A DNA stretch of 64,000 nt from Rubrivivax sp. (GTDB lineage: Bacteria; Pseudomonadota; Gammaproteobacteria; Burkholderiales; Burkholderiaceae_C), in NCBI GenBank assembly GCA_004210455.1, contig SEFA01000032.1, positions 1 to 64,000 of the forward strand. Direction: 5' to 3'. Position 1 is the stretch's first letter; each line of letters opens with the position of its first letter. A model generated the notes under the pieces. The model worked only from the letters and a program-made list of their open reading frames with translations. It made no database searches and was not told where the DNA came from. Positions 3,044-63,728 of the stretch are shown piece by piece. The translations under genes and the position numbers were made by a program.

Positions 3044-3952
3044 TCATCCTCCCTGTGGTCGTGTCGGGGCGGTCGCGCCCCAGATGTCCGCCTCGAACGC
3101 CGCGGGCCAATCGGTGACGCGGCCGCGCTCGAGGTTGAACCAGTACCGTTTCGGCCAGCGTCGCTGCCACGCGGCGGGCGGCGTGTCCTGCGGCGCGAAA
3201 CCAGCCGCTTCGTGGCGGCAGCGCGGGTGCAGGGTCGCGGCACCGGCGGCGAGTTCGCGCTGCCAGCGCGCCGTGTCCCGGCCCAGCCGGAAAAACATCG
3301 GCACGACCTCGTCCGCGACGATGGGATCCATCCACGCGCGGCTGCGGCATTGCCAGGCGAGGAGCGTGACCGACAGCCGCGTCGATGCCGGCAGTGCCGC
3401 GCGCAGCCGCTTCACCAACGCGTGGTAGCTGTCGCGTTGCGAGGGCACGGCCTCGAAATCCAGTTGCACCCAGCCGCTGGTCGAGCGTCGCGCGGCGGCG
3501 ACCACACGCTGTTCGATCGCGATCTGCTGGCGCTCGTTGAGCGCGCGGCCCGGCGAGGCGTCGGCGCCGCGTCCGTCGTAGAGCTCGCCGGCGGGCACCT
3601 GCCGGCGCAGCTGCGGCAGCGGATCCACATGGACGACCGGCGTCACCGGGCGATTCTCCGGCAGGGGCAGGCCTTGCCGCCGCGGGCGCTCCTCGATGCC
3701 GCCCGGCGTCAGGCGCATCTGCGTCACGGTCACCGCCCAGGCGGTGGCGCTGGCCGGCGGGGCGTGGTGGTCCCAGATCCAGGCGATGTCCGTCGGACCG
3801 GGGTCGGGCTTTGCGGCCCTGCCAGCCCCAGCCGGGGCGGCCGTGGTGTTGGTCGAGTCCTTGGCGGGCTCGGCCGCCCAGGCGGCGCCCGGCGCCGCCA
3901 GCTCAGCGGCGGCGCTTAGTACCGCCGCCCAGCAGGCTGCCCAGCACGCCAC
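3044..3952 (-). CDS. DUF3142 domain protein, exported
   Basis: The C-terminal 250 residues match the DUF3142 style: an [11 protein letters not shown] strand early on, a VVHVDPLP strand, then [16 protein letters not shown], as in TIM-barrel glycosidase-like folds where the D-x-E pair sits at a strand end. Function is unknown; DUF3142 proteins are thought to be extracytoplasmic. The start is uncertain. The reading frame stays open to 4066, but that stretch overlaps the yjgR C-terminus. A GTG at 3952 gives a hydrophobic leader ending near GAAWA-AE, so I use it. The TGA stop overlaps the downstream gene's first ATG as ATGA, suggesting coupled translation. Confidence 0.6.
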
Positions 3953-5203
3953 GGACGATCTCCCGACCCACCGACGATCCGATGCTGCGCAGCGCCGACT
4001 TGGCCGCCGTTTCCGCCAGCCCCTCGTGGCGCCCGCCGCGCGGGCCGGTGCTGCCGAAGAGCACATCCTTCAGGCCGCCGAGCAGGCCGCCGCCGTCGTC
4101 CTGCGCGGGCGCGGGCGCCCCGCCGCGGCCCGTGGTCCCAGTTCGGTGATCGCCATCGCGATGTCCAGCCCCGGCTTGGGACGCATCGTGTCCGCCGCCG
4201 CCTTGACCGCCTTCTGGTCCCGCGGCGTGAACGCCCGCAGCGCGTGCTGCACCCGGTTGCCGAGCTGCCCCAGCACCGTGTCCGGGATGTCCAGCGGGTT
4301 CTGCGTCACGAAGTAGACGCCCACGCCCTTGGAGCGGACCAGCCGCACCACCAGCTCGATGCGTTCCACCAGCGCCGCCGGCGCGTCCTTGAACAGCAGG
4401 TGGGCCTCGTCGAAGAAGAACACCAGCTTGGGTTTGTCCAGGTCGCCGACTTCCGGCAGCGCCTCGAACAGTTCCGACAGCATCCACAGCAGGAAGGTCG
4501 CGTACAGCTGCGGCGCGGCCATCAGCTTGTCGGCCGCCAGGATGTTGATGACACCCAGGCCATCCGACGTCTGCATGAAGTCATGGATGTCGAGCATCGG
4601 CTCGCCGAAGAACTTGTCGCCGCCTTGCGCCTCGATCTGCAGCAGCCCGCGCTGGATCGCGCCGACGCTGGCCGCCGAGACGTTGCCGTACTGCGTCGTG
4701 AACTCGCTGGCGTTGTCGCCCACGTGCTGCAGCATCGCGCGCAGGTCTTTCAGGTCCAGCAGCGCCAGGCCGTGGTCGTCGGCGATCTTGAAGACCATCT
4801 GGAGCACGCCGCCCTGGGTCTCGTTGAGCCCCAGCATCCGCGACAGCAGCAGCGGCCCCATGTCGGAGACCGTCGCGCGTACCGGATGGCCCTGCTCGCC
4901 GAACACATCCCAGAGCGTCGTCGGGCAGGCGATGGCGACCGGCGGCTCAAAGCCGCGTTCCTTCAGCACCGCCAGCAGCTTGGCCGACGGCGCGCCGGCC
5001 TGCGAGATGCCGGTCAGGTCGCCCTTGACGTCCGCCATGAACACCGGGACGCCCATCTGGCTGAACGATTCGGCCAGTTTCTGCAGACTGATGGTCTTGC
5101 CCGTGCCGGTCGCGCCGGTGATCAGGCCGTGGCGGTTGGCCAGCGCGGGCAACAGCTGGCACTCGATGTCGCCGTGGCGGGCCAGCAGGATCGGGTCGGC
5201 CAT
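3903..5203 (-). CDS. yjgR: DUF853/YjgR HerA-like ATPase, apparent 1-nt frameshift near 4138
   Basis: Homologue of E. coli YjgR, a HerA/VirB4-like P-loop ATPase of unknown role. Walker A GATGTGKT is at residues 30-37 and Walker B is [12 protein letters not shown]. In the initial frame the protein runs to 4070 and ends in a nonsense Arg/Ala-rich tail. The genuine family C-terminus ([13 protein letters not shown] ... [15 protein letters not shown], ending KRRR) is encoded in the next frame and stops at 3903. The switch falls at the CCC run 4137-4139, where the minus strand reads CTGGGACC; adding one G restores a 433-residue protein. Either a sequencing error or a real mutation that removes about 80 residues. 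Start at 5203 by homology ([10 protein letters not shown]). Confidence 0.8.
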
Positions 5204-5308
5204 GCGGAAGTCTCCAGAGGCAAAAAAGCTAAAATCGCAGTCTAACGAAGCAACCACCGCGCCGCCCCGGAGAATTTCTTCCGGGCCGCGTCACAGGAGA
5301 ACGAGGAC

Positions 5309-6034
5309 ATGGCAGGGCATTCCAAATGGGCGAACATCCAGCACCGCAAGGGTCGCCAGGACGAGAAGCGCGGCAAGGTCTGGACCCGTCTGACGCGTGA
5401 AATCATCGTCGCGGCCCGGGCCGGCGGTGCCGACATCAACATGAACCCCCGCCTGCGCTTGGCCATCGAAAAGGCCAAGGGCGCCAACATGCCGGCCGAC
5501 AACATCAAGCGCAACGTCGACAAGGCCACCGGCAACCTCGACGGCGTGACCTACGAGGAAATCCGCTACGAGGGCTACGGCATCGGCGGCGCCGCCATCA
5601 TCGTGGACTGCATGACCGACAACCGCGTCCGCACCGTCGCCGAAGTCCGGCACGCGTTCAGCAAGTACGGCGGCAACCTGGGCACCGAAGGCTCGGTGGC
5701 CTTCCAGTTCAAGCACTGCGGCCAGCTGGTGTTCGCGCCGGGCACCTCGGAGGACAAGGTCATGGAAGTCGCGCTGGAAGCCGGCGCCGAGGACGTCCTG
5801 ACCGACGACGACGGCGCCATCGAGGTGCTGACCTCGCCCGCCGACTACGAAGCCGTCAAGAACGCGCTCGAAGCGGCCGGCCTGAAGCCCGAAATCGCCG
5901 AAGTGACGATGCGCGCCGAGAACACCGTCGAGCTGGCCGGCGAAGATGCCGCCCGCATGCAGAAGCTGCTGGATGTGATCGAAGACCTGGACGACGTCCA
6001 GGACGTCTACAACAACGCGAGCCTGTCCGAATGA
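5309..6034 (+). CDS. yebC: YebC/PmpR family translation or regulatory protein
   Basis: 241 residues opening with the family signature [20 protein letters not shown], full length for YebC/TACO1. Members have been described both as DNA-binding regulators and, more recently, as factors that relieve ribosome stalling at proline stretches. The ATG follows a GGAGAACGAGGAC sequence that serves as ribosome-binding site. It is the first gene of a plus-strand housekeeping run, and its TGA overlaps the purD ATG (ATGA), so the two are probably co-translated. It diverges from yjgR with about 105 bases between starts. Confidence 0.95.
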
Positions 6035-9027: not shown

Positions 9028-9672
9028 GTGAGCGCCGGCGCGTCAGGGCGCCCGAAGGGGTCGGGTCGTGTCCGTCAGGTCGGGTGGTTCGGCGGATCCT
9101 TCGATCCGGTGCATCGCGCGCATCTGGCGCTGGCGCACGCGGCACTCGACCAGCTGGCGCTGGACGAGGTGCGATGGATCGTTGCCGGTCAGCCTTGGCA
9201 GAAGGCGGGCCGGCGGATGGCGACCGCCGCGGACCGTGCCGAGATGGTGCGGCTGACGATCGCGGGGAAGGGCGGAGATCCCCGCTTCGTCCTCGACGAT
9301 CGCGAGATGAAACGCGCCGGACCGAGCTACACGCTCGACTCGGTGCGCGAGTATCAGCAGGAGCGTCCCGACGACGCGCTCTGGCTGATCCTCGGGCAGG
9401 ACCAGTTGGCCGGCTTCACGAGCTGGAACGGCTGGGAGGAACTGGTCGCGCGTTCGGGGCTGGCGGTCGCGGCCCGCGCGCAGGACAAGGTACAGGCGCC
9501 GGCGGCGCTGCTGGAACGGCCCCATCGGCTGGTCCGGTTGACGATGCCGGCGCTGGAATGGTCATCCACCGAGGCCCGCCGACTGGCGGCCGAGGGCGCT
9601 GACGTAGGGCCCGTGGTGGGCGAAGAGGTGGCGGGTTATATTTCCCGGCACCGTCTCTACAGTGAGAACTGA
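9028..9672 (+). CDS. nadD: Nicotinate-nucleotide adenylyltransferase
   Basis: 214 residues. Adenylates nicotinic acid mononucleotide to deamido-NAD in NAD synthesis. Seen: the nucleotidyltransferase loop GGSFDPVHRAHL (the usual G-x-x-x-P-x-H-x-x-H pattern), a central ALWLILGQDQLAGF segment and the C-terminal SSTEARRL equivalent of the ISSTxIR motif. The start is GTG at 9028, preceded by GGAAGG at good spacing. It ends exactly one base before rsfS, the usual nadD-rsfS-rlmH order in proteobacteria. Confidence 0.95.
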   Translation: MSAGASGRPKGSGRVRQVGWFGGSFDPVHRAHLALAHAALDQLALDEVRWIVAGQPWQKAGRRMATAADRAEMVRLTIAGKGGDPRFVLDDREMKRAGPSYTLDSVREYQQERPDDALWLILGQDQLAGFTSWNGWEELVARSGLAVAARAQDKVQAPAALLERPHRLVRLTMPALEWSSTEARRLAAEGADVGPVVGEEVAGYISRHRLYSEN

Positions 9673-10605
9673 ATGGACATCAAGAAACTGGAACGTGCCA
9701 TCGTCGATGGTCTTGAGGATGTGAAGGGCCAGGACATCCTGGTCTTCGACACCGAGCGCCTGTCGCCGCTGTTCGAGCGCGTGATCATCGCCTCGGGCAC
9801 GAGCAACCGGCAGACCAAGGCGCTGGCCTCCAGCGTGCGCGAGACGGTCAAGAAGCGCGGCATGCAGGTCATGCGCACCGAGGGCGAGGACAACGGCGAA
9901 TGGATCATCGTCGACTGCGGCGCCGCCGTGGTCCACCTGATGCAGCCGGCGATCCGCCAGTACTACCACCTCGAAGAGATCTGGGGCGGCAAGCCGGTCA
10001 AGCTCAAGCTGGGCAGCGGCGGCACCAAGCTGGTGAAGGCCTCGGAGCCGATGGACGACGAAGACGACGCGCCGAAGGCGAAGAAGTCTTCGGCCAAGAA
10101 GTCCGCCAAGGCCGACAAGGCTGAGAAGGCCGACAAGGCCGACAAGGCTGACAAGCCCGCGAAGAAGGCGACCAAGGTCAAGTCCGTCGACGGCGAGGCC
10201 ATCGGTGCCGCGTCGAAGAAGGCGCCGACGCGCGCGACGGGCACGAAGTCCGCTGCCGCCAAGTCGGCGACGAAGGCCGCCCCGGCGAAGACCGCCGCGA
10301 CGAAGACGGCCGCGACCAAGTCCGCCAGACCGGCCGCCAAGAAGACGAGCATCAAGACCACGGCCGCCGCCGCGAAGCCTGCCGCCAAGACCACCCGCAA
10401 GCCTGCCGCCCAGGCGCCGGTCGAGACGGTGAAGGTCGGCAGCAAGAAGCCGGCGATCAAGAAGGCGTCTCCGAAGGTCGCCGCCGCGAAGCCGGCCACC
10501 GGCGCCAGAAAGCCGGCCGCCAAGCCGGCGGCCAAGTCGGTCGCCAAGCCGGCTGCCAAGAAGACCACGGTGAAGACCGGCACGAAGTCCAAGCCCAAGG
10601 TCTGA
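9673..10605 (+). CDS. rsfS: Ribosomal silencing factor RsfS with long Lys/Ala-rich tail
   Basis: Residues 1-115 form a normal RsfS domain ([20 protein letters not shown], then [19 protein letters not shown]), which binds ribosomal protein uL14 and blocks subunit joining when nutrients are scarce. RsfS is usually 105-130 residues; here the chain continues to 310. The extra 190 residues are almost only Lys, Ala, Thr, Pro and Ser, with PAAK/PAKK-like units resembling eukaryotic histone H1 tails and the AlgP/Hc1-type bacterial proteins. The tail is in frame with no stop, begins near [18 protein letters not shown], and may bind nucleic acid. Directly follows nadD and precedes rlmH by 4 bases. Confidence 0.93.
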
Positions 10606-10609
10606 CCCC

Positions 10610-11080
10610 GTGCGTCTGGTGCTGTGCGCGGTCGGGCAGAAGATGCCGGCCTGGGCCGACGAGGCCTATGAGGATTTCGCCAAGCGTTTCCCGCCCGAGA
10701 TGCGGCTGGAGCTCAAGGCGGTGAAGGCCGAACCGCGCACCACCGGCAAGTCGACCGAGCAGCTGATGGCGGCCGAGGCCCTGCGCCTTGACGCCGCCTG
10801 TCCCAAGGGCGCCCGGCGCGTCGTGCTCGACGAGCGCGGTGAACGCGTCACCTCGAAGCAGCTCGCGCAGCGGCTCGAGTTCTGGCGCGGCGACGGGCGC
10901 GACGTCGCCATCTTCATCGGCGGCCCGGACGGGCTTGACGACAGCATCAAGTCGAGTGCCGACGAGAAGCTGCGCCTGTCCGACCTGACCCTGCCGCACG
11001 CCTTCGTCCGCGTGCTGCTGTCGGAAGGCCTCTACCGGGCCTGGTCGGTCATGGAAGGTCATCCGTACCACCGCGAATGA
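10610..11080 (+). CDS. rlmH: 23S rRNA (pseudouridine1915-N3)-methyltransferase
   Basis: 156 residues, the standard size for the SPOUT methyltransferase RlmH, which methylates pseudouridine 1915 of helix 69 using SAM. Seen: start [15 protein letters not shown] from a GTG, the knot region IFIGGPDGL with the SAM-binding glycine loop, and the conserved C-terminus [16 protein letters not shown]. Four bases after rsfS; its TGA overlaps an ATG that could start the next gene. Confidence 0.96.
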
Positions 11081-58364: not shown

Positions 58365-58412
58365 CGCGCGCGGGGAGCGCCTGGGTGGGCCCAGGAGCCG
58401 CTCCGGAACCTC

Positions 58413-58634
58413 TCAGCCGCATCCGGCCATGGCCATCACCCCGTCCACATGCAGCAACGCGACGGACAGCGGGTCCGACGCCAGCGATGCCGCCATGACC
58501 AGCAGGCCCAGGCCGACGCGGAGCGCCCGCGCCCGCCGGCGCTGCGGGCGGCAGGCCAGGATCAGGAAAGGCGCGCCGACGCCGAGCATGAACAGCGCGG
58601 TCAACGCGCCGTGCAGGATCGCGTCCGTCATCAC
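58413..58634 (-). CDS. Small membrane protein at the end of the MetZ operon
   Basis: 73 residues: helix at about 8-27, basic loop RPQRRRARALR, second hydrophobic stretch 40-58, then HVDGVMAMAGCG. Family not recognised. Its ATG follows the MetZ-like stop by three bases, so it is probably translated from the same mRNA. Confidence 0.6.
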   Translation of the reverse strand: MMTDAILHGALTALFMLGVGAPFLILACRPQRRRARALRVGLGLLVMAASLASDPLSVALLHVDGVMAMAGCG

Positions 58635-58637
58635 CGT

Positions 58638-59858
58638 TCAGCCCAGCGCCAGGGCATCGTGCAGCGGCCCGGCGGCCGGCTCGTGATCGGGCAGGCCGGC
58701 CATCGCCAGGTCCAGGTCCTCCATCAGGTCGGAGACGTTCTCCAGGCCGACCGACAGCCGCAGCAGGTCCTCGCCGATGCCGGCCTGCCGGCGTTCCTCC
58801 GCCGACAGCTTGCCGTGCGTGGTGGACGCGGGATGGGTGATCATGCTGCGCGTGTCGCCGATGCTGGTGGCGATGGAAATCAGCCGCAGACTGTCCACCA
58901 CCGACCAGGCACCCAGGCGGCCGCCCGGGACCCGGAAACCCACCACGCCGCCGTAGCCGGACTGCTGGGACACCGCGAGCGCGTGCTGCGGGTGCGTCGC
59001 CAGGCCGGTGTAGATCACGTCGACCGCTTTCGGGGACGCCTTGAGCCAGCGCGCCAGCTGCAGCGCGTTGGCGGAGATCGCCGCCATCCGCAGGTGCAGC
59101 GTCTCCAGGCTCTTGAGCAGCAGCCAGGCGTCCATCGCGCCCAGCGCGGCCCCGGTGACACGCAGCACGCCGCGCAGGTCGGCCATCAGGCGCTCGGCGC
59201 CGACGGCGACACCCGCCACCACCCGGCCATGACCGTCCAGGTACTTCCCGGCGGAATGGATGACGACATCCGCGCCCAGGTCCAGCGGGTGCTGCTGGTA
59301 GGGCGTCAGCAGCGAGTTGTCCACGGCCAGCAGTGCGCCGCGCGCGTGGGCGAGTCGCGCGACGGCCTCGATGTCGCCGACGTGCTGCAGCGGGTTGGAC
59401 GGTGTTTCCATGAAGGCGAATGCGGTGCGATCGTCGATGGCGGCGTGCCACTGCGCCAGGTCGGTCAGGTCGACGACGCGCACCTCGACGCCCAGCTTGC
59501 CGAAATGGTGCCGGAAGGCCGTCAGCGTCGTGCCGAAGACATCGCGGGAACAGACGATGTTCCTGCCGAGGGTGACCCAGGCCTGCGCCATGGCCACGAT
59601 CGCCGCCATGCCGGAGGCGAAGGCGACGGCCGCCTCGGCGCGCTCCATCGCCGCGATGCGTCGCTCGAACGCCTGCACGGTCGGATTGGAGAAGCGCGAG
59701 TAGACATGGCCCGAGGCCGCGCCGCTGAACTTGCGCGCCGCGTCCGCCGCCGACTTGAAGACATAGGCGGAGGTCATCGCGACCGGCTCGCAGTGGGCGT
59801 CGCTCAGGTCGTGGAACTGGGCGGTGCGGATGGCCGCGGTGTAGGGGTGGTAGTCCAT
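58638..59858 (-). CDS. metZ: MetZ-like PLP enzyme (O-succinylhomoserine sulfhydrylase family)
   Basis: 406 residues, Cys/Met-metabolism PLP fold: SRFSNPTVQAFERRIAAME, SNPLQHVGDIEAVARLAH, PLP lysine Lys205 in VVIHSAGKYLDGHG, and ITHPASTTHGKLSAEERRQA. Canonical members add sulfide to O-succinylhomoserine to make homocysteine. Divergence is seen at the PLP loop (SAGK where SATK is usual, and no C/L-GG after DGHGR). Its place in an operon with a diiron-type enzyme, exporter and acetyltransferase leaves open a gamma-elimination or gamma-replacement role in an unusual amino acid pathway. Confidence 0.85.
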   Translation of the reverse strand: MDYHPYTAAIRTAQFHDLSDAHCEPVAMTSAYVFKSAADAARKFSGAASGHVYSRFSNPTVQAFERRIAAMERAEAAVAFASGMAAIVAMAQAWVTLGRNIVCSRDVFGTTLTAFRHHFGKLGVEVRVVDLTDLAQWHAAIDDRTAFAFMETPSNPLQHVGDIEAVARLAHARGALLAVDNSLLTPYQQHPLDLGADVVIHSAGKYLDGHGRVVAGVAVGAERLMADLRGVLRVTGAALGAMDAWLLLKSLETLHLRMAAISANALQLARWLKASPKAVDVIYTGLATHPQHALAVSQQSGYGGVVGFRVPGGRLGAWSVVDSLRLISIATSIGDTRSMITHPASTTHGKLSAEERRQAGIGEDLLRLSVGLENVSDLMEDLDLAMAGLPDHEPAAGPLHDALALG

Positions 59859-59886
59859 GGAAAGCTTCCGTTCGAAGGCGGACCCG

Positions 59887-61191
59887 TCAGGCGGTCGGAT
59901 GGGCCTGCAGCGCCGGGCGCGGGGCCGGCTCGCCGCGCGGATCGCGCAGGAACAGCCAGCTCGTCAGGCCGCCGAGCGCGGTCAGCGCCGCCAGACCGAC
60001 GATGTAGGGCTGATAACTGCCCCACAGGTCGTGGCTGAGCGCGCCCAGCTGCACCGAGGCGAAGCCGCCGAGCTGATGCGCCAGGAAAAGGTAGCCGAAC
60101 GCCCGGCCCTTGATCGCCGCGCCGTAACGCGCCAGGCAGAACATCGAGGTCAGCACCACCGTGCCCAGGTAGGTCGCGCCGAACAGGACGGCGAAGCCCA
60201 GCGTGCGCAGGTCTTCCGACGCACCGAGCAGCAACAGCACCGCGCAGGACCGCAGCAGGTAGAACGCGCCCAGCAGCGCGCGCTGGGGCAGCCGGATCGC
60301 CAGCCAGCCGGTGAGCAGGCCGCTGATCAGTTCCAGCACGCCGAGCAGGCTCAGGCTGACGCCCATGAGGCCGCGCGGCGTCGAGTGGTCCTGCCAGAAC
60401 GCGACCAGATGGACGTCGATGAAGGCCATGGTGGCGCCGCAGCCCATGAAGCCGATCGCCAGCGCGTAGAAGCCGCTGTCGCGCCGCAGCACGGACCAGG
60501 CGCCAGGCGGGGGCGCGTGCGCCGCGTCCTTCCCTCCGGCCTTTTCGCCTTCCGCCGGGAGCGGGAGCGGGGCGGCATCCAGTCCCGCGGCCTTGGCCTT
60601 CGCCGCGGCGAACCACGCCAGACCGGCCAGCGGCACCGCCAGGAAGGCGCCGGTCAGCAGGAAGGTGATCTCCCACGACGCCTTGGGCGCGAGCCACAGC
60701 CAGAAGGGCGACAGCACGATGAAGCTGATCGAGGTGCCGTTGGTGACCACCGCGAAGGCCAGGCCGGATTTCTTCTGCTCGAAGAGGCGGTCGACCAGCA
60801 CGCCCATCGGCACGTAGGTCATGGCCGCCAGGCCGAAGGCGGCGAGCAGTCCGTAGCCGAGCACGAAGACCGGCAGCGACCCGTCGAACAGGCTGGTGCC
60901 CGCGAGCGCGGCGCCGGCGGCCAGGCAGCCGATGACCACGGTGCGCAGCGGGCCGTGGCGGTCGCTCAAGGCGCCCACCAGCGGCGACACCAGTCCGGTC
61001 ACCAGCATGAACACCGAGCCCGACCAGGCGAAGTCGGCACGTCCGCGTCCGAAATGGGTCGCCAGATCGGCGAAGTAGACCTGGTAGACGCTCTTGACGC
61101 TGGTGGAGAAGAACATCACCAGGAAACCCACCGCCACCAGGCCGTGGACGAGGCGGCGCGACGAGGCGCCCGAAGTCGCGCCCGACGTCAT
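59887..61191 (-). CDS. MFS transporter
   Basis: 434 residues, twelve predicted helices with a long central loop (about 200-235, LPLPAEGEKAGGKDAAHAPP). Resembles oxalate/formate-type or monocarboxylate-like MFS members; motif A variant GALSDRHGPLRTVV. The start overlaps the stop of the diiron-type gene (ATGA). Probably exports or imports the metabolite of this operon. Confidence 0.88.
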   Translation of the reverse strand: MTSGATSGASSRRLVHGLVAVGFLVMFFSTSVKSVYQVYFADLATHFGRGRADFAWSGSVFMLVTGLVSPLVGALSDRHGPLRTVVIGCLAAGAALAGTSLFDGSLPVFVLGYGLLAAFGLAAMTYVPMGVLVDRLFEQKKSGLAFAVVTNGTSISFIVLSPFWLWLAPKASWEITFLLTGAFLAVPLAGLAWFAAAKAKAAGLDAAPLPLPAEGEKAGGKDAAHAPPPGAWSVLRRDSGFYALAIGFMGCGATMAFIDVHLVAFWQDHSTPRGLMGVSLSLLGVLELISGLLTGWLAIRLPQRALLGAFYLLRSCAVLLLLGASEDLRTLGFAVLFGATYLGTVVLTSMFCLARYGAAIKGRAFGYLFLAHQLGGFASVQLGALSHDLWGSYQPYIVGLAALTALGGLTSWLFLRDPRGEPAPRPALQAHPTA

Positions 61192-61928
61192 GCCGCCACC
61201 CCGGGGGCGCTGCGACGTGCGGCGGGGCGGCAGTACGCGAGGTACATGCCGTCGTACATGGCGTAGAACAGCCGGCAGGTGTGATCGACCGCGTGCAGCG
61301 CCTCCTGCTGCAGACGGTCCGTGTCGCACAGTTCGGTCACCAGGTTCAGTCCCTGTTCGACGTGGCCCACGTCCTCGGCCTGGTGGACCGAGAAGAACAG
61401 CAGGTCCTCCTCCTTCAGGCCGTAGACCTTGCCCAGCAGTTCGTGGCGCGCCTCGCCCGCCTTGACCTCCAGGTTCTGCCCCTCGCTGGCGATCATCACG
61501 GCGGCGGCGCCGATGTGATAACTGCCGCGGCCGCGCACCGCGTGCAGCCGGTAGTCGATCAGGTCCTGCGTGGCGGGCAGCGGCCGGGCCGCGTCGCGCT
61601 CCTCATCGCTGATCCCGAGCGCGCGGATGAAGTTCTGCATCAGCACCACGTGGTTGTCGGTCTTCGACAGCCGGCCCGTCTCTTCCTCGTAGACGTTGAT
61701 CAGCAGACCGCGCTTGAACGTCGGCAAGGGGCAGTGGAAGAACAGGTGCTCGACGTAGTCGAGGAAGTGCTTCGTCAGCTGATAACCCTGCAGCGCGACC
61801 TGGCGCAGCAGGACCAGGTCCTTGGCCTGCGGGTCCATCAGCCGGTCGAAGATGGGATGCGCCATCGTCAGATGGCTGTTCAGCAGCGAGCGCAATTGCG
61901 CCTTGAAGGCGGCCTTGGATTGCGGCAT
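61188..61928 (-). CDS. Heme-oxygenase-like diiron (TenA/PqqC/CADD-type) protein
   Basis: 246 residues, all-helical. Candidate iron ligands follow the heme-oxygenase-like diiron oxidase pattern: Glu82 or neighbour and His93 in NVYEEETGRLSKTDNH, Glu149 in MIASEGQN, and His182, Asp186, His189 in FFSVHQAEDVGHVEQGL. Relatives include PqqC, Chlamydia CADD, UndA and the lysine-fragmenting lyase BesC, so reaction type cannot be assigned by sequence alone. Overlaps the MFS gene; 18 bases after the GNAT gene. Confidence 0.83.
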   Translation of the reverse strand: MPQSKAAFKAQLRSLLNSHLTMAHPIFDRLMDPQAKDLVLLRQVALQGYQLTKHFLDYVEHLFFHCPLPTFKRGLLINVYEEETGRLSKTDNHVVLMQNFIRALGISDEERDAARPLPATQDLIDYRLHAVRGRGSYHIGAAAVMIASEGQNLEVKAGEARHELLGKVYGLKEEDLLFFSVHQAEDVGHVEQGLNLVTELCDTDRLQQEALHAVDHTCRLFYAMYDGMYLAYCRPAARRSAPGVAA

Positions 61929-61946
61929 GGGAAGGTCCTCTCGGAG

Positions 61947-62516
61947 TCAATGAGCGATGGGGGCGTCGACGCGCCGACGCAGCGATCTCACCGTTTGCGC
62001 CATGAAATGACCGCGGTGGACCGCGCCGCCGACGCGGGCGTAGTCCTCCAGCACGCCGTAGGTCTCGAAGCCGAAGAGCTCCCACAGGCGATGGGCGCGG
62101 GTGTGCTCGCGCACGTCGAGCACCAGCTGCTCGACGGCCAGCCGTTCGGCGAGCCGCACGATCTCCCGGAAGGCGAGCTGCACCAGGTGCAGGCCGCGGA
62201 AGTCGGGGTGCACGACGCCTTTGGCCAGCTCGGCCCGATGGCGGCAGTTCGCCATCCCGTTGAGATGCAGCAGCACCATGAAGGCCGGGCGGCCGTCGAC
62301 GCGGCCCAGCAGCAGGTGGGTGCGGCCGGAGGCGATGCCGTCGCGCAGACCAGCAATAAACTGGACTTGCTGATGGGGGGTCAGGACATGCTCGTATCCC
62401 AGCGTGCCGCCGTCGGCGACGGTGCTGTTCAGAAGAATGATCACATCCGCGGCCACGCGATCATCGATCTGATCGGGCCAGTGGTGGCTGGCGGCGCCTG
62501 CATGCGGTGACCTCAT
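61947..62516 (-). CDS. GNAT-family acyltransferase, first gene of the operon
   Basis: 189 residues. GNAT-like fold with acetyl-CoA-binding region VVHPDFRGLHLVQLAFREIV and RAHRLWELFGFETYGVLEDY. N-acetyltransferase or arginine-succinyltransferase-like role; substrate unknown. GGAGGA ribosome-binding site before the ATG. Shares a 231-bp divergent promoter region with the AraC regulator. Confidence 0.82.
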   Translation of the reverse strand: MRSPHAGAASHHWPDQIDDRVAADVIILLNSTVADGGTLGYEHVLTPHQQVQFIAGLRDGIASGRTHLLLGRVDGRPAFMVLLHLNGMANCRHRAELAKGVVHPDFRGLHLVQLAFREIVRLAERLAVEQLVLDVREHTRAHRLWELFGFETYGVLEDYARVGGAVHRGHFMAQTVRSLRRRVDAPIAH

Positions 62517-62747: not shown

Positions 62748-63728
62748 ATGAAGAACGTGTATTTCCTGATGGTCCCGTCGACCCACCTGCTGGACCTGGC
62801 GGGTCCGCTGCAGGTCATCCATTCCGTCGGCGAGGTGGGGGCCGGGTCGGTCGACCTGCGCTGCATCGGACCGGAGGTGTCGGTCGGCGCCTTCCAGCCT
62901 TTGACGTTGACCGATATCCGCCCGCTGCCGCGCACCTTGCCGCCGGAGGCGGTGCTGTTCGTCATCGGAGCCAAGCTGACGCCGGCGCTGGTGCGCTCGT
63001 CGGCCTGGCGGAAGTCGGTCGACTGGCTGGCCCGGCTGGGCCGCGAGCGGCCCGACGGGCTGCGGATCTGCGGCGTCTGCTCCGGCACCTTCCTGCTGGC
63101 CGAGGCGGGACTGCTCGACGGCCGCCTGTGCACCACGCACCACCGCTTCATCGCGCGGCTGCGCGCGGCCAGTCCCACGGCGACGGTGCTGGAGAACCGC
63201 GTGTTCGTCGAGGACGGCGACCTGCTGACCTCCGCCGGGGTGACCTCGGGCATCGACCTGGCGCTGCACCTGGTGTCGCAGGCCTTCGGCGAGGACGTGG
63301 CGATCCAGGTCGCGCGGGAGAACGTGGTGAACTTCCGCCGCTTCGGCGCCGATCCCGAGCTGTCCGCCGCGACGCGCCACCGCGCCCACGGCAACCAGCG
63401 CATCCACGCGATCCAGGATGCGATCGCCGCGCGCCTGCACGCCGGCGTCACGATCGGGGAACTGGCCGCCCAGGCCGGCCTGAGCGAGCGCCACCTGGCC
63501 CGGTTGTTCCTCGCCGAGACGGGGGTGAGCATCAAGCAATACCAGATCGCGCTGCGCATGGACCTGGCGCGGCGGCTGATGACCAGTTCGCGGCTGTCGC
63601 TCGAGAACATCGCCGCTTCCTGCGGCTACAGCAGCGTGCAGGCCTTCCGCGCCAACTGGAACAAGCACGAGCAGCTGCCGCCTTCGCTGCTGCGACGGGG
63701 CGAGGGCGTGACGCAGCCTATTTCCTAG
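62748..63728 (+). CDS. GlxA-type AraC regulator (DJ-1/PfpI plus HTH)
   Basis: 326 residues: N-terminal DJ-1/PfpI domain with the nucleophile-elbow cysteine in ICGVCSGTFLLAEAGLL, then two AraC HTHs (GVTIGELAAQAGLSERHLAR and LSLENIAASCGYSSVQAFRA). Likely senses the operon's metabolite and controls the divergent genes. The leader 62677-62747 has several GCGATGA(A/C) units just before the ATG and no clear ribosome-binding site. Confidence 0.9.
   Translation: MKNVYFLMVPSTHLLDLAGPLQVIHSVGEVGAGSVDLRCIGPEVSVGAFQPLTLTDIRPLPRTLPPEAVLFVIGAKLTPALVRSSAWRKSVDWLARLGRERPDGLRICGVCSGTFLLAEAGLLDGRLCTTHHRFIARLRAASPTATVLENRVFVEDGDLLTSAGVTSGIDLALHLVSQAFGEDVAIQVARENVVNFRRFGADPELSAATRHRAHGNQRIHAIQDAIAARLHAGVTIGELAAQAGLSERHLARLFLAETGVSIKQYQIALRMDLARRLMTSSRLSLENIAASCGYSSVQAFRANWNKHEQLPPSLLRRGEGVTQPIS

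Follow-up and report, generated by a model that had tools for sequence, protein, structure and literature searches.

A five-gene operon in Rubrivivax sp. (contig SEFA01000032.1, of which positions 1 to 64,000 were analysed and are referred to as the window) encodes a haem-oxygenase-like diiron protein (HDO), a GNAT-fold protein, a transporter of the major facilitator superfamily (MFS), a MetZ-like pyridoxal phosphate (PLP) enzyme and a small hydrophobic protein. We conclude, with a probability of roughly 85%, that the operon is a dedicated biosynthetic module of a recurring family with a fixed core of HDO and GNAT protein; its product is probably a small amino-acid compound of an unusual kind. 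The sequence-only reading of this DNA had suggested an undescribed route in which a PLP enzyme of the Cys/Met type acts together with a diiron enzyme, an acetyltransferase-like protein and a transporter, and the recurrence of the gene set in 41 further loci supports that suggestion. The module is apparently undescribed; no description of an HDO-GNAT module was found in open-licence PubMed Central (PMC) texts, bioRxiv lying outside the scope of the search.

A fixed HDO-GNAT pair with exchangeable partner enzymes

One genome per species was scanned with an alignment of six HDOs, which gave 115 pattern matches, 41 of them encoding relatives of the window HDO. The scan relies on two conserved peptides, and relatives without these peptides escape it. 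Two duplicates (L019 = L026, L020 = L029) were not counted, and L018 (genome G007), with an HDO 93% identical to the window protein, stands outside the 41. Over 38 relatives the identity to the window protein is 52-84%, the HDO of Mitsuaria sp. GD03876 (L026), the nearest locus with a species name, being 84% identical; the host is a Mitsuaria relative. By their record titles, the loci come from Pseudomonadota, Myxococcota (Sorangium) and Actinomycetota, and from metagenome-assembled Planctomycetota, Bacteroidota and Cyanobacteriota, which we take to be six phyla; metagenome bins may be wrong.

Neighbouring genes were sought by tblastn at E 1e-4, the queries being the window proteins, one nicotianamine synthase (NAS) and one PALP sequence. 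A GNAT relative lies near the HDO in all 41 loci, at a distance of at most 3.7 kb, and in eight loci the two share one open reading frame (ORF). Seven of these are GNAT-HDO fusions (L041, L043, L044, L045, L057, L059 and L066, where ORF 9416-10678 covers both parts in one frame); the eighth, in L063, is a single HDO-NAS-GNAT ORF, all three parts of which are seen by Pfam. L061 has a GNAT-MetZ fusion in a single ORF.

The third enzyme is exchanged between loci. A single partner type occurs in 40 of the 41: a MetZ-like enzyme in 28, a NAS-like enzyme in six (L042, L057, L059, L060, L062, L063) and a PALP protein resembling SbnA or cysteine synthase in six (L049, L050, L052, L054, L056, L058), with no locus carrying two together. 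The exception, L066, has none of the three within its 20.7 kb, where NAS was also sought by profile; the one NAS of that genome lies 67 kb off, in the same orientation on the contig that carries L066. Pfam/NCBIfam models confirm NAS in three loci and PALP in three, the other assignments resting on tblastn and, for NAS, on a profile built from these sequences. The exchange of enzymes that are not homologous to one another narrows the step to the placement of an aminocarboxyalkyl group on an acceptor X, toward which three independent ways lead.

Among the 28 MetZ-type loci, the same-strand order GNAT-HDO-MFS-MetZ is kept in 24 (not in L047, L053, L055 and L061), a recurrence that argues against chance; on such conservation the sequence-only reading had made its proposal depend. 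In 23 of these 24 loci a DJ-1/AraC regulator gene lies within 5 kb, up- or downstream, and when all 41 loci are counted, 23 have a full-length relative of the window regulator no more than 5 kb from the HDO, every one of them of the MetZ type.

Properties of the HDO, the GNAT-fold protein and the partner enzymes

The AlphaFold2 (AF2) model of the HDO has a mean predicted local distance difference test score (pLDDT) of 91. The best 50 of 78 Foldseek matches (E up to 0.001) all have the haem-oxygenase fold and comprise CADD, PqqC, UndA, HrmI, BesC, FlcD, TenA and relatives. Among the matches listed, the nearest fold is CtCADD (8va9; template modelling (TM) score 0.78/0.89), followed by PqqC, UndA, a TenA homologue and HrmI (9nh9; TM 0.76-0.77), with BesC (7twa; TM 0.68-0.70) further down. 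The predicted metal ligands E82, H93, E149, H182, D186 and H189 (three His/three carboxylate), at positions transferred by sequence alignment from the ligands of CADD, do not vary among the 39 aligned HDOs (the window protein and 38 of the 41 loci; L044, L045 and L064 were dropped as near copies). Separately, residue E60, in the helix ahead of the first ligand helix, is Glu in 37 of the 39 and Gly in L062 and L063; judged from the sequence, it might be a seventh ligand, giving an SznF-like 3H/4C enzyme.

The protein falls below the cut-offs of the NCBIfam models for CADD (its best match there, 82.1 bits, cut-off 200), PqqC (23 bits, cut-off 240) and BesC (NF042919, 19.7 bits, cut-off 500). With Pfam, its score for TenA/PqqC (PF03070) is 22 bits, equal to the printed cut-off, and that for PF14518 is much better (79.2 bits). 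We predict that it is a member of the haem-oxygenase-like dimetal oxidase superfamily and represents a new subfamily. Synthesis of p-aminobenzoate, the activity of CADD/PabS, was considered and rejected, as the positions of the two sacrificial residues of these enzymes, Tyr27 and Lys152 (PMC11965152), are not kept: the first is F27 in the window and Phe, Val, Ile or Leu, never Tyr, in 39 of 39 HDOs, and the second is E159 in the window, just two of the 39 having Lys there. The reactions described for HDOs include N-oxygenation, C-C cleavage, desaturation, C-N bond formation and rearrangements (PMC13108848, PMC13185094, PMC12614342).

The GNAT-fold protein is likewise modelled well (AF2, pLDDT 91.7). 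Its best Foldseek match is tabtoxin resistance acetyltransferase (1ghe, E 9.8e-13); phosphinothricin-type and other acetyltransferases follow closely.

MetZ enzymes transfer an aminocarboxypropyl group from O-acyl-homoserine. The window protein scores 492.5 bits with the O-succinylhomoserine sulfhydrylase model (NF006003, cut-off 522); of four further operon MetZs, that of L053 passes (530.6), and those of L034 (509.1), L041 (471.6) and L061 (407.9) lie under the cut-off. When the 29 operon MetZs (one from the window and 28 from the other loci) were placed in a tree together with 17 further copies, taken from the host and the locus-bearing genomes, they came out as a single clade (95/84). The host encodes five further full-length PF01053 proteins: a true MetZ (L002, 618 bits with the same model), two O-acetylhomoserine sulfhydrylases above their cut-offs, and two proteins that best fit the cystathionine gamma-lyase and cystathionine beta-lyase models, below cut-offs. 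Housekeeping methionine synthesis was therefore rejected as the role of the operon enzyme, a dedicated paralogue, given its separate clade and the true MetZ elsewhere; the sequence-only reading would have fallen had this been the only methionine sulfhydrylase of the genome, which it is not. That reading had also singled out the PLP loop, SAGK, as a departure from the common SATK. The loop was read correctly but is nothing special, and was rejected as a sign of novelty, SAGK being the commonest loop among the operon MetZs (20 of 29; STGK in five, SAAK in three, SLGK in one), with SGTK in the true host MetZ. A MetA-like homoserine O-acyltransferase is encoded beside MetZ in L047, L053 and L055 (tblastn; in L053 Pfam identifies the protein as HTS, and its NCBIfam score is 213.9 bits against a cut-off of 358), which favours synthesis over breakdown.

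The operon NAS proteins pass the Pfam cut-off (PF03059) in all three that were scanned by hmmscan (L057, L042 and the fused L063), and by the same cut-off a NAS was found in four of six genomes searched, the other two being those of PALP-type L058 and MetZ-type L061. The sole relative of the L042 protein found in the PDB is the thermonicotianamine synthase of Methanothermobacter (MtNAS), whose Glu81 is retained in six of six operon NAS. NAS moves the 3-amino-3-carboxypropyl group of S-adenosylmethionine (SAM) to an acceptor, which for MtNAS is the amine of glutamate (PMC10491745), and SbnA places an aminocarboxyethyl group from O-phosphoserine on the amine of glutamate (PMC12414870). SbnA (TIGR03945) is the best NCBIfam model for each of the three scanned PALPs, at 320, 320 and 290 bits under a cut-off of 350. 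By analogy with these relatives, we infer that MetZ, NAS and PALP all decorate an acceptor with an aminocarboxyalkyl group, the acceptor atom most likely being nitrogen.

The MFS protein, which we propose to be an exporter, has SfMCT as its best NCBIfam model (79.9 bits, cut-off 320). The DJ-1/AraC regulator is proposed as a putative sensor of the product or an intermediate; its DJ-1 part is nearest to isonitrile hydratase InhA (54 bits). Stand-alone DJ-1 proteins are encoded in L042 (10717-11307, InhA best match) and L061 (10707-11279, InhA second, after 3mgk). Both retain the aligned Asp and Cys, and may have an enzymatic or a sensory role toward the product. They point only weakly to an isonitrile, because the DJ-1 part of the regulator resembles InhA as well.

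A proposed pathway and its alternatives

We propose that the MetZ paralogue, by gamma-replacement, puts the 3-amino-3-carboxypropyl group of O-succinyl- or O-acetyl-homoserine on an acceptor, probably a nitrogen nucleophile, so that homocysteine would not be made. In sister loci an equivalent job would be done by NAS with SAM, or by the SbnA-like protein, which would donate an aminocarboxyethyl group from O-phospho- or O-acetyl-serine. The HDO, with its predicted fold and ligands, would then activate O2 and oxidise the amino-acid-like product by N-oxygenation, desaturation or C-C cleavage. The GNAT-fold partner might acylate the oxidised product or its alpha-amine, and thereby stabilise the product or protect the producer, after which the MFS protein would export the product and the DJ-1/AraC protein would sense it. 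We give the complete mechanism, with aminocarboxypropyl transfer, oxidation by the HDO and acylation or protection by the GNAT protein, about an even chance of being correct. More tentatively, and with the odds somewhat against it, the HDO and its P-loop-deviant GNAT partner may perform a new oxidation of an aminocarboxyalkyl-nitrogen compound to a reactive group (of the N-oxide, enamide/vinylglycine or isonitrile type), yielding a cryptic family of amino-acid-like natural products in which three unrelated carbon-donor enzymes have been swapped around a constant reaction.

Several observations weigh against the proposed mechanism. Nitrogen is named as acceptor atom by analogy with the NAS and SbnA relatives, and Tyr107 of MtNAS, which helps to deprotonate the acceptor amine, is Phe in six of six operon NAS; the acceptor may therefore differ, which counts against simple use of glutamate. 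The L054 PALP, the only one searched, matches cystathionine beta-synthases (CBS) in the PDB before SbnA. The PALP unit has two carbons and the MetZ/NAS unit three, and the products may therefore be homologues rather than one compound. In the GNAT proteins, the motif [QR]xxGx[GA], the usual acyl-CoA P-loop signature, is absent at its aligned position in all 33 examined (window, L018 and 31 of the 41 loci). It occurs anywhere in the domain in six of these 33, as against 24 of the best 30 of 37 PF00583 matches in the host. Use of acyl-CoA is therefore uncertain, which is a caution rather than proof of loss, because some host GNATs are also without the motif. The loci, moreover, are not independent: L032 and L064 have identical HDOs, L032 and L036 are one species, and four loci are from Photobacterium. 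The HDO tree needs at least two, and most simply four, changes among the three partner labels, and a single MetZ-type clade is not rejected (approximately unbiased test, p-AU 0.20). We claim no ancestral partner state, because the root of this tree is weak and the long rows L060 and L061 are joined.

The steps might run in the opposite order, with HDO and GNAT making a nitrogen nucleophile (a hydroxylamine, hydrazine or N-hydroxy-amide) that MetZ, NAS or PALP caps to a canaline- or alanosine/homoalanosine-like amino acid. A constant HDO-GNAT pair with a varying capping enzyme is what would be expected if the capper only had to accept one nucleophile, and the replacement of Tyr107 by Phe in NAS suits a nucleophile that needs less deprotonation. 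N-oxygenases are also known among HDOs, HrmI and SznF being examples (PMC13108848), and HrmI is among the fold matches. The CADD and PqqC folds are nearer than that of HrmI, however, no gene for a small-amine source was noticed among the scanned ORFs, most flanking ORFs lying outside those scans, and the place of the HDO before or after capping is not readable from sequence. We regard this order as rather unlikely. Less probable again is a sulfur route, in which the HDO would oxidise a thioether, for instance cystathionine, made from cysteine by MetZ and NAS and from homocysteine by PALP. Such a thioether is the one product that we can conceive of as identical from all three enzymes, and the three scanned PALPs do match the CBS model (243-270 bits, cut-off 510), in keeping with the PDB result for L054. 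The SbnA model nevertheless outscores the CBS model in three of three, and we know of no NAS-type enzyme that alkylates a thiol.

The sequence-only reading had likened the pair to the beta-ethynylserine pathway, with a BesC-like HDO fragmenting a lysine derivative to an allylglycine for a BesB-like Cys/Met PLP enzyme. The two enzyme classes are indeed the same and BesC is among the fold matches, but the likeness finds no support beyond that: the HDO lies far under the BesC cut-off, none of the six window genes is a halogenase, and the PLP enzyme gives way to NAS or SbnA-like proteins in 12 of the 41 loci (13 with L066). No NAS or SbnA-like protein is known to us to act on allylglycines, and we consider this route highly improbable. 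The same low standing is given to a catabolic or protective operon, in which the MFS protein would take up an environmental amino acid for acetylation and oxidation, with the MetZ-like enzyme acting as a gamma-lyase. The transporter is nearest to the monocarboxylate type (far below that cut-off), the accessory distribution is scattered and MetZ relatives include methionine gamma-lyases; against this stand the MetA-like acyltransferases beside MetZ in three loci, the exchange with NAS, all of whose known relatives are biosynthetic, and the NRPS (nonribosomal peptide synthetase) and PKS (polyketide synthase) genes in sister loci.

Genomic setting and comparison with known systems

The coordinates of the operon are listed in the table. 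The tight packing of five minus-strand genes with a divergent regulator, described from the sequence alone, stands: the ORFs are open as placed, and the recomputed gaps are 18, -4, 28 and 3 bases. The 73-residue protein has no match in Pfam or NCBIfam; a similar ORF is present in L018 (89%) and L026 (68%), and weakly in L027 and L028.

Features of the operon and its divergent regulator gene, with positions in the window
Feature	Position	Strand	Annotation
Small protein	58413-58634	-	73 aa, hydrophobic, GTG start; lineage-specific accessory
MetZ-like PLP enzyme	58638-59858	-	Pfam Cys_Met_Meta_PP PF01053, 1.3e-125
MFS transporter, monocarboxylate-transporter-like	59887-61191	-	Pfam MFS_1 PF07690, 2.3e-32
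HDO, haem-oxygenase-like diiron protein	61188-61928	-	Pfam Haem_oxygenas_2 PF14518, 4.2e-22
GNAT-fold protein	61947-62516	-	Pfam Acetyltransf_1 PF00583, 2e-5, above cut-off
DJ-1/AraC regulator (GlxA-type), divergent	62748-63728	+	Pfam DJ-1_PfpI PF01965 and HTH_18 PF12833

Between a response-regulator gene and a gene that by eye resembles L-aspartate oxidase, the operon is either there in full or cleanly missing. In the sister genome G006, matches to window position 58365 (the end of the response-regulator gene) and to contig position 64689 are only 58 bp apart. The HDO is found in three of 16 genus genomes and in seven of 200 family genomes (E 1e-10), the host included in both counts. The operon is an accessory block. 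Three of the seven HDOs in the family (L023, L024 and L025) are distant (30-32% identity) and adjoin an aldehyde dehydrogenase gene; they represent another uncharted HDO group. No HDO relative was confirmed on viral contigs, and plasmids gave a single 28.6% match, in Cupriavidus. The defence library yielded weak class-V-type matches to the PLP enzyme and nothing else, and a promoter and terminator scan of the operon gave nothing exceeding chance. Beside the operon and just beyond the window, host contig positions 64009-64524 (L142:9010-9525) hold a small ORF on the minus strand that by eye looks microcin-like, its leader being of the double-glycine type and its core rich in Gly and Ala.

The surroundings of the sister loci are known from scanned ORFs only. 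L054 has a PKS and AMP-ligases, and L049, L050 and L056 hold ORFs that belong to the same clusters; NRPS genes occur in L059 and L052, and L047 has a PhyH oxygenase. Such neighbours fit specialised metabolism. A PF04909 amidohydrolase-like protein recurs in NAS- and PALP-type clusters and L066 (L049, L050, L054, L056, L057, L059, L066; one scanned, the rest by tblastn). It may be a second oxygenase, since amidohydrolase-related dinuclear oxygenases (AROs) exist, as mentioned in PMC11965152. In L060, from a Planctomycetota metagenome-assembled genome, a short protein of 778 aa resembling leucyl-tRNA synthetase (LeuRS; positions 3070-5403, 448 bits, cut-off 548) is encoded directly after NAS-GNAT-HDO, and could be a self-resistance copy of the target or a divergent housekeeping gene.

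According to PMC13108848, functional validation exists for only about a dozen HDOs. The subfamily described here has an unusually tight context: its partner is constant, and the carbon donor is one of three enzymes whose chemistry is known in part. If our interpretation is true, small amino-acid metabolites of one class should exist in Pseudomonas, Photobacterium, Burkholderiales, Streptomyces and others, and the HDO reaction behind them is very likely new.

The beta-ethynylserine pathway likewise joins an HDO and a PLP enzyme of Cys/Met metabolism in one cluster; it differs in that the window HDO is remote from BesC by model score, the PLP enzyme is MetZ-like and exchangeable, and the window operon has no halogenase. 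A C-N bond formed by a Cys/Met-type PLP enzyme, as proposed for the operon MetZ, has a parallel in loline biosynthesis, where LolC joins an aminocarboxypropyl group from O-acetylhomoserine to proline, in a fungal alkaloid pathway with other oxidases. SbnA (staphyloferrin B) and CntL/MtNAS (metallophores) share the transfer of an aminocarboxyethyl or aminocarboxypropyl group to an amine, and relatives of SbnA and MtNAS replace MetZ in sister loci; to our knowledge, no HDO or GNAT protein of the operon kind takes part in their pathways. CADD/PabS, the self-sacrificing p-aminobenzoate synthases, resemble the window HDO in fold, in the six dimetal ligand positions by alignment and as its best NCBIfam match, but the window protein stays below their cut-off, is without Tyr27, belongs to a subfamily in which Lys152 is mostly replaced, and is found in another operon setting. 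MboA (mangotoxin), PolF (polyoxin) and HrmI (hormaomycin) are also HDOs of biosynthetic clusters, with amino acids or peptides as substrates (PMC13185094, PMC13108848, PMC12614342); their clusters and partner enzymes are different, and of the three, HrmI alone is among the best 50 of 78 fold matches of the window HDO.

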